Shown: in pieces, positions 33,234 to 39,909 of the stretch
Layout of the letters: every line of letters begins with the position of its first letter
Position numbering within the stretch: the first letter of the stretch is position 1
Assembly (NCBI GenBank): GCA_016744535.1
Contig: JADGEE010000012.1
Span: forward strand, 1 to 45,138
Length of the DNA: 45,138 nucleotides
Direction of reading: 5' to 3'
Origin: Campylobacteraceae bacterium
GTDB taxonomy: Bacteria > Campylobacterota > Campylobacteria > Campylobacterales > BB28
Notes under the pieces: model-generated
Database searches by the model: none
The model's input: the letters and a program-made list of their open reading frames with translations, nothing else
What the model was told of the DNA's origin: nothing
Translations under genes and position numbers: made by a program

Positions 33234-33266
33234 AAAGTTTGAAATTATTTAATAATTTTAAACTTT
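33234..33266. promoter_or_regulatory. Near-perfect 33-base palindrome ahead of the TonB-dependent receptor gene
   Basis: The left arm AAAGTTTGAAATTATT (33234-33249) and right arm AATAATTTTAAACTTT (33251-33266) pair over 16 bases with one mismatch and one central base. A related half, AATAATTTTAAAGTTTGA (33192-33209), lies upstream. The 188-base gap holds nothing coding; these sites, 54 bases before a TATAAT (33320-33325), look like operator copies. Confidence 0.5.
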
Positions 33267-33319
33267 AAATTCTCCAAACTTAAATATAAAAATTATTTAT
33301 GAATTCAATTTTTAATAGA

Positions 33320-33325
33320 TATAAT
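33320..33325 (+). promoter_or_regulatory. -10 box of the TonB-dependent receptor gene
   Basis: TATAAT at 33320-33325, 26 bases before the ATG at 33352, in an AT-rich context. Confidence 0.45.
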
Positions 33326-33351
33326 TAATCCATTAAATTAAAGAGGGGTTG

Positions 33352-35379
33352 ATGTTGAAAAATTTTTTATTATTATTAAACTTTTTAATAATAAGTTTAA
33401 TGGCAGATAGTGATTATTTTTTAGAGACACTAAATGAAGCTACAGAAATTGCCACAAAAACGAAACTTAATATAGATTATGTTCCAGGCACTGTTACAAT
33501 TATAAAAGGTAATGAATTAAAATCTATGGGAGTTACTAATTTAAATCAATTAAATGCTTATGATATGGTTGTAGGAATGGAATCAGTAGTATCTAGTTTG
33601 CGTGGTGTTGGTTCAATGTATGGGGCTATTGGAAATAAAATTAAATGGATGTTAAATGGTAGAGTTATTGAGACAGAGTTAAGAGAGACAGATGATTGGG
33701 GTAAGGGTCCTGTATTTACTCCAATACCAGTAGATTTTATTGAAAGAGTAGAATTTATTAGAGGTGCTGGTTCTGCATTATATGGAGGAAATGCAATTTT
33801 TGGAGTAATTAATATTATTACTAAAAAAAATGTTAGTGGAGTTTTTGGAGAGTTTGAGTATTTAAGAGGTTCAAATATAGCTAAACATACTGGAGTTTAT
33901 ACTAATATTAAAGAGGGGGACTTATCAATTGATTTAAGTCTATCTACTTATAAAAGTGATGGATATGATTTATATGTTGGACTTGATGGACACTTCTATA
34001 ATGACACGACAGCGAAGCAAACCCCAGCTTATGGTCCAGGTGATTTACCAGCACACTCTAAAGCTTATAATTTAATGACAGATTTTAATTATAAAGATTA
34101 TAAATTTTGGGTATATAATTTTCAAACAAAGACAGGGCAAGGTTATGTTGATTGGTATCCAACTGATGTACTTCCTCCAGATGATGGTCGATATATTAAA
34201 ACAATGGAAAATACAATGATAGGATTAGAAAAGTCATTTTTATTTAATGATATTAAAATAACTCCAGAAATTGGATTAAGTATATATGAAAACCCAGCTG
34301 ATAGGTATTTTAAATATCCAGCAAATTTTATCATTTTAGCATTAACGCAAGAGTCTTATACAGATGAAAAATTTCGTTCAAGAGAGTATAAAGAGCAAAA
34401 ATCTTATGGACAAATTGATTTGGAATATCAAGCTAAAAATCATATGTTAATGGGAGGTGTTTTTTTTCAAAATACAAAAATTATAAAAGATAAAACTTTT
34501 AGAAATTATACAATAAATTCTCCAGAATCTATAGAGTGGTTTGAACATACTGGACTTTTAAAAGATAAAAAACATCGTAATCAACAAGCTATTTATATTC
34601 AAGATATTTGGGATATTACTGATGATATAGCAATTACTACTGGTATTAGATATGATTACTTTAGTGATGTAGATGAAGCTTTTTCACCTAGAATAGCAGG
34701 TGTGTATAGTATAAATAACTCTAATATTTTAAAAATGCAATATTCTCGTTCATTTAGACCACCATCTTTTTTTGAAGCTTATGGTTATATGTCACCTTAT
34801 GTTTTAAAACCTGAAACTGTAGATACTTACGAGATAGGATATATTTTTAAATATGATGAATCTACCTTTAAAGCTACACTATTTAAATCGTATATGAACG
34901 ATATGATAATACAACATTATCGTTCTTACTATTTTGAAAATTTAAAAGATAAAGCAAAAGTTGATGGGCTTGAACTTGAATATGAGTGGAAGAGCAAATA
35001 TTTTAAAGTAAATTTAAATGGTGCTTTTTATGATACACATAATGAAGAGACAAACAGTGATTTTTCACTCTCATCAAAATTTATAGGAAATATTTATGGA
35101 ACATACTTATTTAATTCAAATAATCATTTAACTCTATGGTGTCACTATTTATCAAAAAAACCTAGATTAGAAAATGATTCAAATGGTTTTATTCCATCAC
35201 AAGACTATTTAAATATTACTTACAAAATGAAATTTAAAGAGGTTGAATTAAATTTAGGTGTAAAGAATCTATTTAATAAAATACAAGATACTCTATATAT
35301 GCCTTTAAATCCAAAAAATAGTGATGATATACCTTATATGGGGCAAAGTATTTGGTTAAATTTTAATTATAACTTTTAA
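33352..35379 (+). CDS. TonB-dependent outer-membrane receptor
   Basis: A 675-residue receptor. A signal peptide (to about residue 19, MAD) and then a plug domain: VPGTVTIIKGNEL, the LRGVG and NGRVI loop, and FIERVEFIRGAGSALYGGNA at the plug-barrel border. The barrel follows, with the end strand SIWLNFNYNF closing in the aromatic residue typical of outer-membrane proteins. The substrate is unknown: no siderophore or vitamin genes are adjacent. Start taken at ATG 33352 (AGAGGGG at 33342-33348); the frame also opens at TTG 33349. The next genes encode a YfiR-like periplasmic protein and a sensor kinase, so the receptor may be a sensor component. Confidence 0.92.
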   Translation: MLKNFLLLLNFLIISLMADSDYFLETLNEATEIATKTKLNIDYVPGTVTIIKGNELKSMGVTNLNQLNAYDMVVGMESVVSSLRGVGSMYGAIGNKIKWMLNGRVIETELRETDDWGKGPVFTPIPVDFIERVEFIRGAGSALYGGNAIFGVINIITKKNVSGVFGEFEYLRGSNIAKHTGVYTNIKEGDLSIDLSLSTYKSDGYDLYVGLDGHFYNDTTAKQTPAYGPGDLPAHSKAYNLMTDFNYKDYKFWVYNFQTKTGQGYVDWYPTDVLPPDDGRYIKTMENTMIGLEKSFLFNDIKITPEIGLSIYENPADRYFKYPANFIILALTQESYTDEKFRSREYKEQKSYGQIDLEYQAKNHMLMGGVFFQNTKIIKDKTFRNYTINSPESIEWFEHTGLLKDKKHRNQQAIYIQDIWDITDDIAITTGIRYDYFSDVDEAFSPRIAGVYSINNSNILKMQYSRSFRPPSFFEAYGYMSPYVLKPETVDTYEIGYIFKYDESTFKATLFKSYMNDMIIQHYRSYYFENLKDKAKVDGLELEYEWKSKYFKVNLNGAFYDTHNEETNSDFSLSSKFIGNIYGTYLFNSNNHLTLWCHYLSKKPRLENDSNGFIPSQDYLNITYKMKFKEVELNLGVKNLFNKIQDTLYMPLNPKNSDDIPYMGQSIWLNFNYNF

Positions 35380-35427
35380 TAAACTTAATTATTTGATTAC
35401 AGTTTTATTTTAATTATGATACTTATC

Positions 35428-35456
35428 TTGACGAAATTTGTTAATAGTGTTAAAAT
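35428..35456 (+). promoter_or_regulatory. Promoter of the YfiR-like/histidine kinase genes
   Basis: TTGACG (35428-35433), a 17-base spacer and TAAAAT (35451-35456), about 30 bases before the ATG at 35487. It gives the periplasmic protein and kinase their own transcript besides any readthrough from the receptor gene. Confidence 0.6.
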
Positions 35457-35486
35457 TTAAATAATTAAATTAAAGAAGTATATTAA

Positions 35487-36008
35487 ATGGTTAAGTGTTT
35501 TATAATATTTTTATCTCTTTTAAATATTTTATTTGGAAATGAACTGATAACTCAAAGTAAGTTATTTCCTTACTTTTTAATGTATGATAAAGAGTTAAAA
35601 GATAAAACTATTGATAATACTATAAACTTTTTAATAGTTTATGATGAGTTTTCAAAAGAGAGTGCATTTAAATTAAAAGAATCTATCATAAAAGAGCATG
35701 GATTTAAAATAAATGAGTATAAGTTAAATACAATTTTAGCTGAAAATTTGACAATTGATGATTTGAAAATAGCAACTGCTATCTATATTTTTGATATAGA
35801 TGATAAATATGTTAAAATAATAACTAACTTTGCAAAGAAGCATAAGCTTATAACATTTGCTAATAAATCAGCTATGTTAAAAAAGGATATAGTAGTTGCA
35901 CTTTCAATTAAAAAGAGAGTTCAACCTCTTATAAATTTAAAAGTTTTAAAAAGCTCAAATATTAAACTTTCTTATAAAATTTTTAAGGTATCTAAAATTT
36001 ATGAATAA
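35487..36008 (+). CDS. YfiR-like (DUF4154-related) periplasmic protein
   Basis: 173 residues with a signal peptide (to about residue 17, FGNE). The body is a Rossmann-like periplasmic domain; the ending, LKSSNIKLSYKIFKVSKI, resembles the closing ISSKLLKLAK motif of YfiR/DUF4154 proteins. YfiR of Pseudomonas is a periplasmic repressor in a membrane signalling chain. The match is weak in the middle, and DUF4154 is named with caution. It lies between a TonB-dependent receptor and a membrane kinase and overlaps the kinase by eight bases, which supports a role passing a signal between them. Confidence 0.6.
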   Translation: MVKCFIIFLSLLNILFGNELITQSKLFPYFLMYDKELKDKTIDNTINFLIVYDEFSKESAFKLKESIIKEHGFKINEYKLNTILAENLTIDDLKIATAIYIFDIDDKYVKIITNFAKKHKLITFANKSAMLKKDIVVALSIKKRVQPLINLKVLKSSNIKLSYKIFKVSKIYE

Positions 36009-37593
36009 AATATTTTTTTCTCTTGGAAATAGAGTAAACTTAATAAATACTCTTCTATTTTCGGCATTAATAACTCTTTTTTATCTATATAATAGTTTAA
36101 TAACTTTTCCAGAAATATTGCAAGAAAAAGAGGAGAGAATAAAGGAGATTGCACTCTCATTTAAAGAAGATTTATCACTTACACTCTATTTTATGGAAGA
36201 TAAAGAGGCAATAGAAGATGCACTAAAAAGAGTTGGCTATATAGAGAGTGTATTAAATATTGAAATAAGGGATAAGAGTCTTAATTTAATAGCATCCTAT
36301 TCAAAAGTAGACTTTAACTTTAAAGCAAGTTTAAATACTAATGTAGAACTTATAGAGGCTAAAATTCCTTATTTTAGATACTCTTATGTTTTAAAGCAGA
36401 AAAGTATTAAACATTTTGTAATTATATATTATAGTGCTTCTTCATATTTAAAAAAAATTCAGAGTTATCAGAAGTTTATTCTAATGATATTTATAGTTAT
36501 TTTAATTATTATTTTAATCTACTCATCTATTTTAAAAAAAATTTTGTCCCCTTTGAGTGAACTTGCAATAATAATATCTAACATAGATTTCAAAAATTTT
36601 AAAAACTTTAAATTAAAAAAAATTAATTCAAATGATGAGAGAAGTTTAATTATAAATTCAACTCAAAAAATGCTTGATAATATTGAGACAAATTTAAAAG
36701 AGTTAAAATCTTTAAATTCATCACTTGAAGAGAAAGTTTTAGAAAAAACTATTAAGTTAGAGAGATTAAATAAATCACTTGAAGAAAAAGTAAAAAAAGA
36801 GGTTCAAAAAAATTTAGAAAAAGATAGTATTATGTTTCAACAAGCACGTTTGGCACAAATGGGTGAAATGATAGGAAACATAGCACATCAGTGGAGACAG
36901 CCTTTAAATGTATTATCTCTTATCATTCAAAGATTAGAAATTGATTATTACACTAATAAAGAGATAACAGAAAATAGTATTATGGAAATTGTAAATGATT
37001 CATTAGAGCAAGTTGATTTTATGTCTAAGACAATAGATGATTTTAGAAACTTTTTTAAACCAAATAAAGAGAGAGAAGTTTTTTTTATTAAAAAACATAT
37101 TGAAGATAGTTTAAAAATAATTTCAGCTCAATTTAAAAATGATAAAATTATTATAAATTTAACTGGTAATGATTTTATGGTAAATGGATATTCTAATGAG
37201 TTTAAGCAAGTTATTTTAAATATTTTATCTAACTCAAAAGATGCTTTTAATGATTTTGAAAAAAAAGAGTATAAAATTAATAATAAACATTTAGATATAG
37301 AGATTTCAATAAAAGATAAAATTGGAATAATTAAATTAAAAGATAATGCAAAAGGTTTAGATAAAAAAATTATAGATAGAATTTTCGAACCATATTTTAC
37401 AACAAAACATCAATCTCAAGGTACAGGAATTGGTCTTTATATGTCAAAAATGATTATTGAAAAAAATATGCATGGTAAACTTTATGTTAAAAATATTTTA
37501 TCCAAAAGAGGAGTTATATTTACTATTGAATTACCCATATACAAGGAAAATATAAATGAAACTACTAATTTCAGCCCTAGAGCCATCAAGTAA
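36001..37593 (+). CDS. Membrane sensor histidine kinase
   Basis: A 530-residue kinase. TM1 is about 14-33, a periplasmic sensor segment of about 120 residues follows, then TM2 (about 155-177) and a HAMP-like linker. A long coiled coil (about 235-280) leads to the dimerisation helix with GNIAHQWRQPLN (His296). The ATP domain has N box NILSNSKDAF, G1 DNAKGLD (Ala for the usual Gly), F box IFEPYFTTK and G2 GTGIGLYMSK. No response regulator is fused or immediately adjacent. The last 13 residues overlap lpxB. Its periplasmic part may sense the YfiR-like protein. Confidence 0.92.
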   Translation: MNKIFFSLGNRVNLINTLLFSALITLFYLYNSLITFPEILQEKEERIKEIALSFKEDLSLTLYFMEDKEAIEDALKRVGYIESVLNIEIRDKSLNLIASYSKVDFNFKASLNTNVELIEAKIPYFRYSYVLKQKSIKHFVIIYYSASSYLKKIQSYQKFILMIFIVILIIILIYSSILKKILSPLSELAIIISNIDFKNFKNFKLKKINSNDERSLIINSTQKMLDNIETNLKELKSLNSSLEEKVLEKTIKLERLNKSLEEKVKKEVQKNLEKDSIMFQQARLAQMGEMIGNIAHQWRQPLNVLSLIIQRLEIDYYTNKEITENSIMEIVNDSLEQVDFMSKTIDDFRNFFKPNKEREVFFIKKHIEDSLKIISAQFKNDKIIINLTGNDFMVNGYSNEFKQVILNILSNSKDAFNDFEKKEYKINNKHLDIEISIKDKIGIIKLKDNAKGLDKKIIDRIFEPYFTTKHQSQGTGIGLYMSKMIIEKNMHGKLYVKNILSKRGVIFTIELPIYKENINETTNFSPRAIK

Positions 37594-38581
37594 TTTACAC
37601 TTAAAAGAGTTGATAAAATATTTAAATGATACTGAATTTGCAGGGATTTATGATAAAAATTTAATTTCAACTCCTCCACTTTATGATATGAGAGAGTTTT
37701 CTGTAATGGGTTTTATGGATATTATTTATAAATATTTTAAAGCAAAAGAGGCGATAAAGGAGTTAGCTTTTATCTCTTGCGATTGTGATAGAGTTATATT
37801 AATTGATGCTCCTGCATTTAATATTCCTTTAGCTAAAGAGATAAAAAAAGTTAATCCAAATATAAAAATAATTTATTATATTTTGCCAAAGGTTTGGGCT
37901 TGGAAAGAGGGTCGTATTAAAAAAGTAGAAAAATATTGTGATAAATTAATTTCTATTTTTCCATTTGAAAAAAACTATTTTAGAAACTCTTTATATTTAG
38001 GAAATCCTCTACTTGATGAAATTGATAAATTTAAATCAAGAGTTAGTAATAATGATACTATAGCTTTTTTAGCAGGAAGTAGAAAAAGTGAAATAGAAGC
38101 TTTAATGCCAACTTTTAGAGAAGTTGCAAAAAAAATTGATAAAAAGAGATTATTAGTTATCCCTAAATTTTTAGAGAATTTAAGTATATATGGAGATATC
38201 AGTGATTTTGAAGTTATAAGAGATACAAAAGAGGCTTTAAATAGAAGTGACTTTGCTTTTATATGTAGTGGAACGGCTACCTTAGAGGCTAGTTTAATTG
38301 GAACTCCTTTTGTTTTAGTATATAGAGCTAAAACAATTGATTTTTTAATTGCAAAACTTTTTGTTAAAATTAAATTTGTTGGACTTTCAAATATTATTTT
38401 TAATTTTGAAAATTTAGGAAAATTTCATATAGAGTTACTTCAAGATGATGTTAATTTAAAAAACATATTAGAAGCTTATGGAAGGTGTGATAGAGAACAA
38501 TTTTTAATTAATTCTAAAAAATTAAGAGAAATTTTGAAAGGCGGAGTTTCAAAAGAGTTGGCAAAAACTATTAAAGTGTAA
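37556..38581 (+). CDS. lpxB: Lipid-A-disaccharide synthase
   Basis: A 341-residue inner-membrane-associated GT-B enzyme joining UDP-diacyl-GlcN and lipid X to the lipid A disaccharide. LISALEPSSNLHLKEL, then YYILPKVWAWKEGR, AFLAGSRKSEIEAL and FICSGTATLEASLIGTPFVL are family hallmarks. AAGGAAAATATAA precedes the ATG. It overlaps the kinase gene by 38 bases and is followed by kdsA after 27. Confidence 0.95.
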   Translation: MKLLISALEPSSNLHLKELIKYLNDTEFAGIYDKNLISTPPLYDMREFSVMGFMDIIYKYFKAKEAIKELAFISCDCDRVILIDAPAFNIPLAKEIKKVNPNIKIIYYILPKVWAWKEGRIKKVEKYCDKLISIFPFEKNYFRNSLYLGNPLLDEIDKFKSRVSNNDTIAFLAGSRKSEIEALMPTFREVAKKIDKKRLLVIPKFLENLSIYGDISDFEVIRDTKEALNRSDFAFICSGTATLEASLIGTPFVLVYRAKTIDFLIAKLFVKIKFVGLSNIIFNFENLGKFHIELLQDDVNLKNILEAYGRCDREQFLINSKKLREILKGGVSKELAKTIKV

Positions 38582-39498: not shown

Positions 39499-39909
39499 AT
39501 GAGAGTTTTATATATTGATGATGACAGGTTAAGTCTTAATATTACAAAAAGTATATTAGAGCAAAGATGTAAAAAAAGTTTTTTTATAGATGGGGTTTGC
39601 TGTAAGATGGAAGATGGCTGGAAACGCTATATAGAGGGTGGGTTTGATTTTGTAATGATTGATTTAAGTATTCCTAAGAGTTATGCTTATGAGTTAATTG
39701 ATAAAATAACATATTTAAATCCATTTCAAAAAATAATTACATTAAGCAATGGAGCTGGAAATTTAAATAGACCTAGCTCAAAGTTAGGTTGTATTCATTG
39801 TAAAGAAAACCATAAGAGAATTAGAATTAGTAAACCATTAAATGTAAAAATTTTAAGAGATACTTTAATAAATTTTGAAAATAAAAATTGTTGTTTTAGT
39901 TTTAATTGA
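39499..39909 (+). CDS. Single-domain, Cys-rich response regulator
   Basis: A 136-residue REC domain with no output domain. Acidic pocket IDDDR (7-10), phospho-acceptor Asp55 in MIDLSIP, Ser in ITLSNG at the switch place and Lys in ISKPLN are all present. Seven cysteines occur (24, 34, 35, the C-x-x-C pair in LGCIHCKE, and a terminal CC), unusual for REC. A TATAAA-containing -10 region (about 39468) gives its own promoter; AAAAGGG precedes the ATG. It may be the partner of the orphan kinase two genes upstream. Confidence 0.8.
   Translation: MRVLYIDDDRLSLNITKSILEQRCKKSFFIDGVCCKMEDGWKRYIEGGFDFVMIDLSIPKSYAYELIDKITYLNPFQKIITLSNGAGNLNRPSSKLGCIHCKENHKRIRISKPLNVKILRDTLINFENKNCCFSFN

Follow-up and report, generated by a model that had tools for sequence, protein, structure and literature searches.

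The locus and its genes

The window analysed here is a stretch of 45,138 nucleotides from a Campylobacteraceae bacterium (GenBank assembly GCA_016744535.1, contig JADGEE010000012.1, forward strand). Gene positions and Pfam matches within it confirmed a line of three genes, all on the forward strand, that encode a TonB-dependent receptor (TBDR), a periplasmic protein of the YfiR/DUF4154 type and a histidine kinase with two transmembrane (TM) segments (Table 1). These genes had been proposed as an envelope sensory chain in an earlier note made from the sequence alone, whose start point, 33234, falls in the non-coding stretch 5' of the receptor gene. The receptor and yfiR genes are separated by a gap of 107 nt, and the overlap claimed between yfiR and the kinase gene was borne out, at 8 nt. 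The kinase gene in turn shares 38 nt (37556-37593) with lpxB, whose start lies within it, which raises the possibility of translational coupling between a lipid A gene and the sensory kinase. As parts of the module, lpxB and kdsA were ruled out, since neither was present in any of the 27 other neighbourhoods tested.

Table 1. Positions of the genes and other features of the receptor-YfiR-kinase locus, numbered from the first nucleotide of the window
Feature	Position	Strand	Remarks
TonB-dependent receptor (TBDR) gene	33349-35379	+	TTG start, ATG at 33352
Candidate extended -10 promoter before yfiR	35428-35456	+	10/12 consensus matches plus TG extension; weak
YfiR/DUF4154-type periplasmic protein gene (yfiR)	35487-36008	+	signal peptide; proposed relay
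Two-TM histidine kinase gene	36001-37593	+	transducer
Kinase sensor region (TM1, periplasmic domain, TM2)	36001-36600	+	domain in common with GGDEF/EAL transducers of other YfiR loci
lpxB	37556-38581		overlaps kinase gene
Stand-alone receiver-domain protein gene	39499-39909	+	Response_reg 4.4e-6, below Pfam cut-off

The receptor carries a signal peptide and both domains expected of its family at scores above the Pfam cut-offs (Plug, 5.7e-11; beta-barrel, 2.7e-39), and its best solved relatives include CirA, FepA and BtuB. Plug and barrel were the only domains that Pfam recognised on it, with no STN domain found, and the neighbouring proteins scanned with Pfam included neither a FecR anti-sigma factor nor an ECF sigma factor. 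TonB itself is encoded in the same genome, by two TonB_C genes. The kinase matched HATPase_c above cut-off (4.6e-16) and HisKA just below it (1.1e-5), and has an H-box, HQWRQP, with His296, an N-box, NILSNS, and the motifs DNAKG and GTGIGL. Its TM segments lie at about residues 12-36 and 152-186, and no Pfam domain was recognised in its sensor region.

The yfiR and kinase genes had also been credited with a promoter of their own. The candidate, TTGACG-17-TAAAAT with a TG extension, is plausible as a match to the consensus, but it does not stand out from the background of this AT-rich stretch, where 51 promoter-like matches were found versus 44 expected from shuffled sequence. As the receptor and yfiR genes overlap or abut in most relatives, a separate promoter is in any case not general. 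That no regulator is attached holds for the genes adjoining the trio. The receiver-domain protein encoded two genes downstream was considered as the cognate regulator of the kinase; no counterpart or close match to it was found in the sister genome G001, and it is only a possible partner. This protein has a Cys/His-rich insert (GCIHCKENHK) and a terminal Cys pair. In one relative (L042), an OmpR-type regulator is encoded immediately 3' of the kinase.

The periplasmic protein belongs with YfiR

Taken alone, the match of the periplasmic protein to DUF4154 (PF13689) is marginal, at 2.1e-5 and 25.0 bits, just above the cut-off of 24.9. Rather than disappearing in a profile search, the match strengthened: the profile built from 19 relatives of this protein matched that of clear DUF4154 members at 97.9% (5.6e-13, 167 columns). 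The clear-DUF4154 profile matched solved YfiR chains at 1.7e-7, and the window-type profile (A1) had no direct match to solved YfiR, so that the sequence link runs through the stronger DUF4154 members. Folding without an alignment gave a pLDDT of 41, and AlphaFold2 with a three-sequence alignment produced a confident model, with a pLDDT of 83.7. Thirteen of the 16 best PDB matches of this model were YfiR chains (TM-score 0.57-0.75 on target), and its score against the solved YfiR 4yn7 was 0.70 on target; the model also resembles the substrate-binding proteins 3lkv and 5z6v. Pseudomonas YfiR has two cysteine pairs (PMC4655355), and both of these conserved pairs are absent from the window protein, whose sole cysteine, Cys4, is in the signal peptide. 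The profile comparison and the predicted fold thus back the marginal Pfam call and support membership of the YfiR family.

One sensor domain for different transducers

The sensor region of the window kinase scored E = 0.083 against CHASE8 in Pfam, and its profile match to that domain dropped from 96.9% with the TM segments to 48.6% after their removal, for which reason a firm CHASE8 assignment was rejected. Clear CHASE8 domains are present in the transducers of some relatives. When the sensors of kinase-type and GGDEF/EAL-type transducers were compared as profiles (A4 versus A6, hhalign), they matched at 99.9% (1e-36), and at 99.5% (9e-23) without the TM segments. Of ten nominal controls of the TM-free comparison, five scored 0.1-0.3% and five 16-97%, the latter all being from YfiR loci and hence not true controls. 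By these profile comparisons, the kinase and GGDEF/EAL transducers of YfiR loci are proteins with one common sensor domain.

A search of the phylum with this sensor gave 50 strong matches, 44 of which had a YfiR gene no more than 6 kb away, a proportion inflated by construction since the seeds were drawn from YfiR loci. Less inflated by the seeding are the overlap at the level of genomes, with YfiR present in all 27 of the 27 sensor-bearing genomes, and the relocated cases (L129, L111). A kinase 40% identical over its full length to that of the window, and with the same sensor domain (G000:C15:14381-15919; L069 5876-7486), has no adjoining YfiR or receptor gene and could share the YfiR of another locus.

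Recurrence of the trio

The detection of YfiR relatives depended on the query: a scan of genome contigs with a single YfiR sequence had no matches, and a four-row alignment found two loci. Searches with our own profile were positive in 34/298 genomes of the phylum, at 55 places, versus 15/200 genomes with Pfam DUF4154 alone, which misses many members. Neighbourhood genes were classified with profiles built for this analysis. Among 63 YfiR loci of the phylum, which include repeats within genera and so are not 63 independent events, a receptor gene lay no more than two genes from YfiR in 55 and a same-strand transducer gene was present at 53, with no recognised same-strand transducer at the other 10; at 8 loci YfiR and a transducer occurred with no receptor nearby. 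The genes of the trio thus co-occur in relatives and do not scatter. Receptor-YfiR-transducer with overlapping ends is the commonest order, and YfiR-kinase-receptor and receptor-kinase-YfiR are also found.

Within the genome of the window itself, a DUF4154 gene adjoins six of the nine TBDR (Plug) genes, where about 0.05 such adjacencies would be expected in roughly 3000 genes (P about 2e-11). The trio also recurs outside the phylum, in annotated plasmids of Alpha- and Gammaproteobacteria (two of Sphingobium, one of Indioceanicola and one of Pseudoalteromonas), in the same order as in the window and with CHASE8 hybrid kinases, confirmed by Pfam in two of these trios, or an EAL protein as transducers. 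Cultivable carriers include Sphingobium indicum B90A, with the module on plasmid pSRL1, and Pseudoalteromonas sp. Bsw20308, with it on pPBSW1. A view of the three genes as unrelated chance neighbours would fit the absence of the adjacent kinase from the sister genome, but it is scarcely credible beside the adjacency at most loci of the phylum, the clustering within one genome and the recurrence in a second phylum.

Two plasmids of Pseudoalteromonas have IS30 transposase genes beside their YfiR modules (L151 4018-4986; L152 1703-2671); in L151 the transposase gene is directly before yfiR, at the place that the receptor occupies in L152.

Exchangeable outputs

The input side of YfiR loci is constant and the outputs vary, being histidine kinases, GGDEF or GGDEF/EAL proteins, or SpoIIE proteins. 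Two further loci of the window's own genome illustrate this. One (L052) encodes YfiR, a receptor and a CHASE8-SpoIIE protein, and in the other (C72; L055 5122-7035) the gene directly after a TBDR gene encodes relay and output as a natural fusion, a single protein with DUF4154 and a SpoIIE phosphatase domain as well as a long coiled region and a TM segment. In many bacteria the receptor-YfiR pair is joined to different outputs, and it thus seems to be a sensing module open to reuse.

The nature of these outputs also bears on a reading in which the direction of signalling is reversed, with YfiR and the kinase sensing the periplasm (stress, redox) and the receptor being a co-transcribed target whose expression the kinase sets. 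Such a reading would account for the eight loci with YfiR and a transducer where the receptor is not nearby, and for the possible promoter between the receptor gene and the yfiR-kinase pair in the window. It is made rather improbable by the many GGDEF/EAL or SpoIIE outputs, which have no direct transcriptional control of a neighbouring gene, by the retention in G001 of a receptor-YfiR pair without a kinase, and by the co-divergence of receptor and YfiR, both described below.

Another fusion, at a different locus of the same genome (C6; L037 8915-11185), joins an ammonium transporter domain to HAMP and a chemotaxis MCP domain; its gene is three genes after that of YfiR, the intervening two encoding a kinase and an ankyrin-repeat protein.

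Co-divergence and history of the locus

The matching of partners was assessed in 41 complete modules, in comparison with 2000 swaps of partners made within genomes only. Distances between receptors correlated with those between their YfiR proteins at 0.79, versus a swap mean of 0.50, and 0/2000 swaps reached the observed value; the corresponding correlations were 0.65 versus 0.47 for YfiR and sensor (P 0.0045) and 0.72 versus 0.52 for receptor and sensor (P 0.0055). As all exceed the swaps, partners have been inherited together beyond random pairing, which supports their being one unit and by itself is no proof of contact.

The history of the window locus is a composite one. In quick trees, several forks of which are weak, the YfiR and sensor of the window grouped with those of L033, from the same genome, and L034, from Candidatus Thiovulum imperiosus, both of which have a different type of receptor and the order YfiR-kinase-receptor. 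The window receptor grouped with that of the sister genome G001, that of L122 and two receptors of its own genome without an adjoining YfiR. By these trees, the receptor and the YfiR-kinase pair of the window differ in lineage, and the discordance indicates that the receptor was probably exchanged at the locus before the split from G001. In G001 (L032), an assembly that is 88% complete, the receptor and YfiR genes have no adjacent kinase gene, and the sole strong sensor match is a hybrid kinase on another contig (L185) with no YfiR beside it. The receptor-YfiR pair and the hybrid kinase of G001 may act together in trans; alternatively, their separation could reflect an incomplete assembly.

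Two receptors of the window receptor's lineage in its own genome that lack a YfiR (L146 3313-5343, on C31; L148 2528-4549, on C33) have the N-terminal motif TEIATKTKxN-D-VPG in common with it.

A proposed relay across the envelope

That the chain proposed in the earlier note forms a functional unit is supported by co-occurrence, the exchange of outputs, matched divergence and recurrence in a second phylum. By analogy with YfiBNR, the tripartite system of Pseudomonas aeruginosa (also TpbB; DgcN in E. coli), the trio would be a trans-envelope signalling unit, a reading to which we give a probability of roughly 60%. In such a unit, sensing at the outer membrane would fall to the TBDR where YfiBNR has the lipoprotein YfiB, YfiR would relay the signal through the periplasm, and the kinase would act as transducer at the inner membrane where YfiBNR has the diguanylate cyclase YfiN. 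It is probable that YfiR attaches to the periplasmic domain of the kinase and fixes one of its activity states, and the receptor plug, moved by TonB or bound by ligand, would capture, release or reorient YfiR; the kinase would hand its phosphate to a regulator encoded elsewhere. What we infer here extends from the receptor-to-kinase direction of the signal, and with it the reporting of ligand uptake, to the physical contacts, the sign of regulation, the ligand and the cognate regulator. The precedent is Pseudomonas YfiR, which bridges both membranes: at the inner one it is believed to inhibit YfiN, and at the outer one YfiB captures it (PMC4655355).

The main rival to such a relay is a route in which the TBDR imports a ligand and the loaded YfiR docks on the kinase sensor, making contact between receptor and YfiR unnecessary. 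The likeness of the YfiR model to substrate-binding proteins is in keeping with this route, as is the exchange of the receptor at the locus, which fits a loose receptor-YfiR link. We consider it rather less likely than the relay: the co-divergence of receptor and YfiR (0.79) exceeds that of YfiR and sensor (0.65), which suggests specific matching of the former pair, and the characterised YfiR works through protein contacts (PMC4655355).

Comparison with known systems

The families of the components are known, and in the relay model they would work together as in a known system, but with two of its parts replaced. What the window has in common with YfiBNR is a protein of the YfiR fold whose gene stands between that of an outer-membrane component and that of a transducer in the inner membrane, which carries a periplasmic sensor. 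The window differs in that its outer-membrane gene is for a TBDR and not an OmpA-like lipoprotein, its output is a histidine kinase and not a diguanylate cyclase, its YfiR is without the conserved cysteine pairs, and its sensor bears only a weak likeness to CHASE8. With FecAR/FecI, the trio would have in common a TonB-dependent receptor as sensor for an inner-membrane partner. However, with no STN domain and, among the scanned neighbours, no FecR or ECF sigma gene, and with YfiR as the proposed relay and a kinase as the output, the layout is unlike FecR/sigma systems, as had been noted. FecI/FecR/FecA is the receptor-linked system that has been described for Campylobacterota (PMC9239204).

Among kinases, the trio can be compared with LuxPQ, a binding-protein-dependent sensor kinase system. 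Both have a periplasmic protein that may report a ligand to a kinase sensor, but that of the window is of the YfiR family and not a full two-lobed binding protein, and its gene cluster includes an outer-membrane receptor. No account of a TBDR-YfiR-kinase trio was found in the open-access literature searched, a coverage outside which most subscription journals lie.

Signalling across the Gram-negative envelope that is triggered by receptors is known chiefly from STN/FecR/sigma systems, and YfiR chiefly as a component of YfiBNR. If the recurrent module is what it seems, it would be a second general route from outer-membrane receptors to the cytoplasm, one that ties receptor occupancy to a phosphorelay or to c-di-GMP, and receptors of the phylum that have perhaps been taken for nutrient transporters may have a signalling function.

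An acyltransferase-linked branch

In the modules of 15 relatives, a gene for an acyltransferase of about 197 aa is directly upstream of the receptor gene, usually overlapping it (L040 8833-9429; L045 3888-4499; L049 8729-9319; L051 3627-4220; L058 273-863; and L104, L105, L106, L107, L108, L112, L115, L116, L117 and L129). Acetyltransf_5 was matched above the Pfam cut-off in 10/10 of those tested, and further matches to Autoind_synth and FeeM reached 9.8e-8 and 8e-7, respectively. E-x-D-x-x-D and E-x-S-R, together with an Arg, are conserved in the alignment of these proteins, features that we take to fit LuxI-type synthases. The acyltransferase is thus a candidate signal synthase of the LuxI/FeeM superfamily, and its linkage suggests that some of the receptors beside it sense an acylated, self-made signal. 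In this branch, a LuxI/FeeM-type enzyme would make an acylated signal that acts through the TBDR and YfiR on c-di-GMP, which points to a testable ligand class. The window is without an acyltransferase gene, and so the branch gives no evidence on the window's own ligand. A wider scheme, in which the TBDR-YfiR-transducer module is general with exchangeable outputs, the acyltransferase branch is for cell-cell communication to c-di-GMP, and the window represents a kinase branch with another ligand, is put forward tentatively and is on the doubtful side.

Across the 298 genomes, 14 of 17 full-length matches to the acyltransferase were upstream of a receptor-YfiR module, a count biased towards modules by the use of module loci as seeds of the profile. 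Broken remnants of the acyltransferase gene are also found upstream of modules, in G155 (C1:372065-372303) and G275 (C2:158721-159067).
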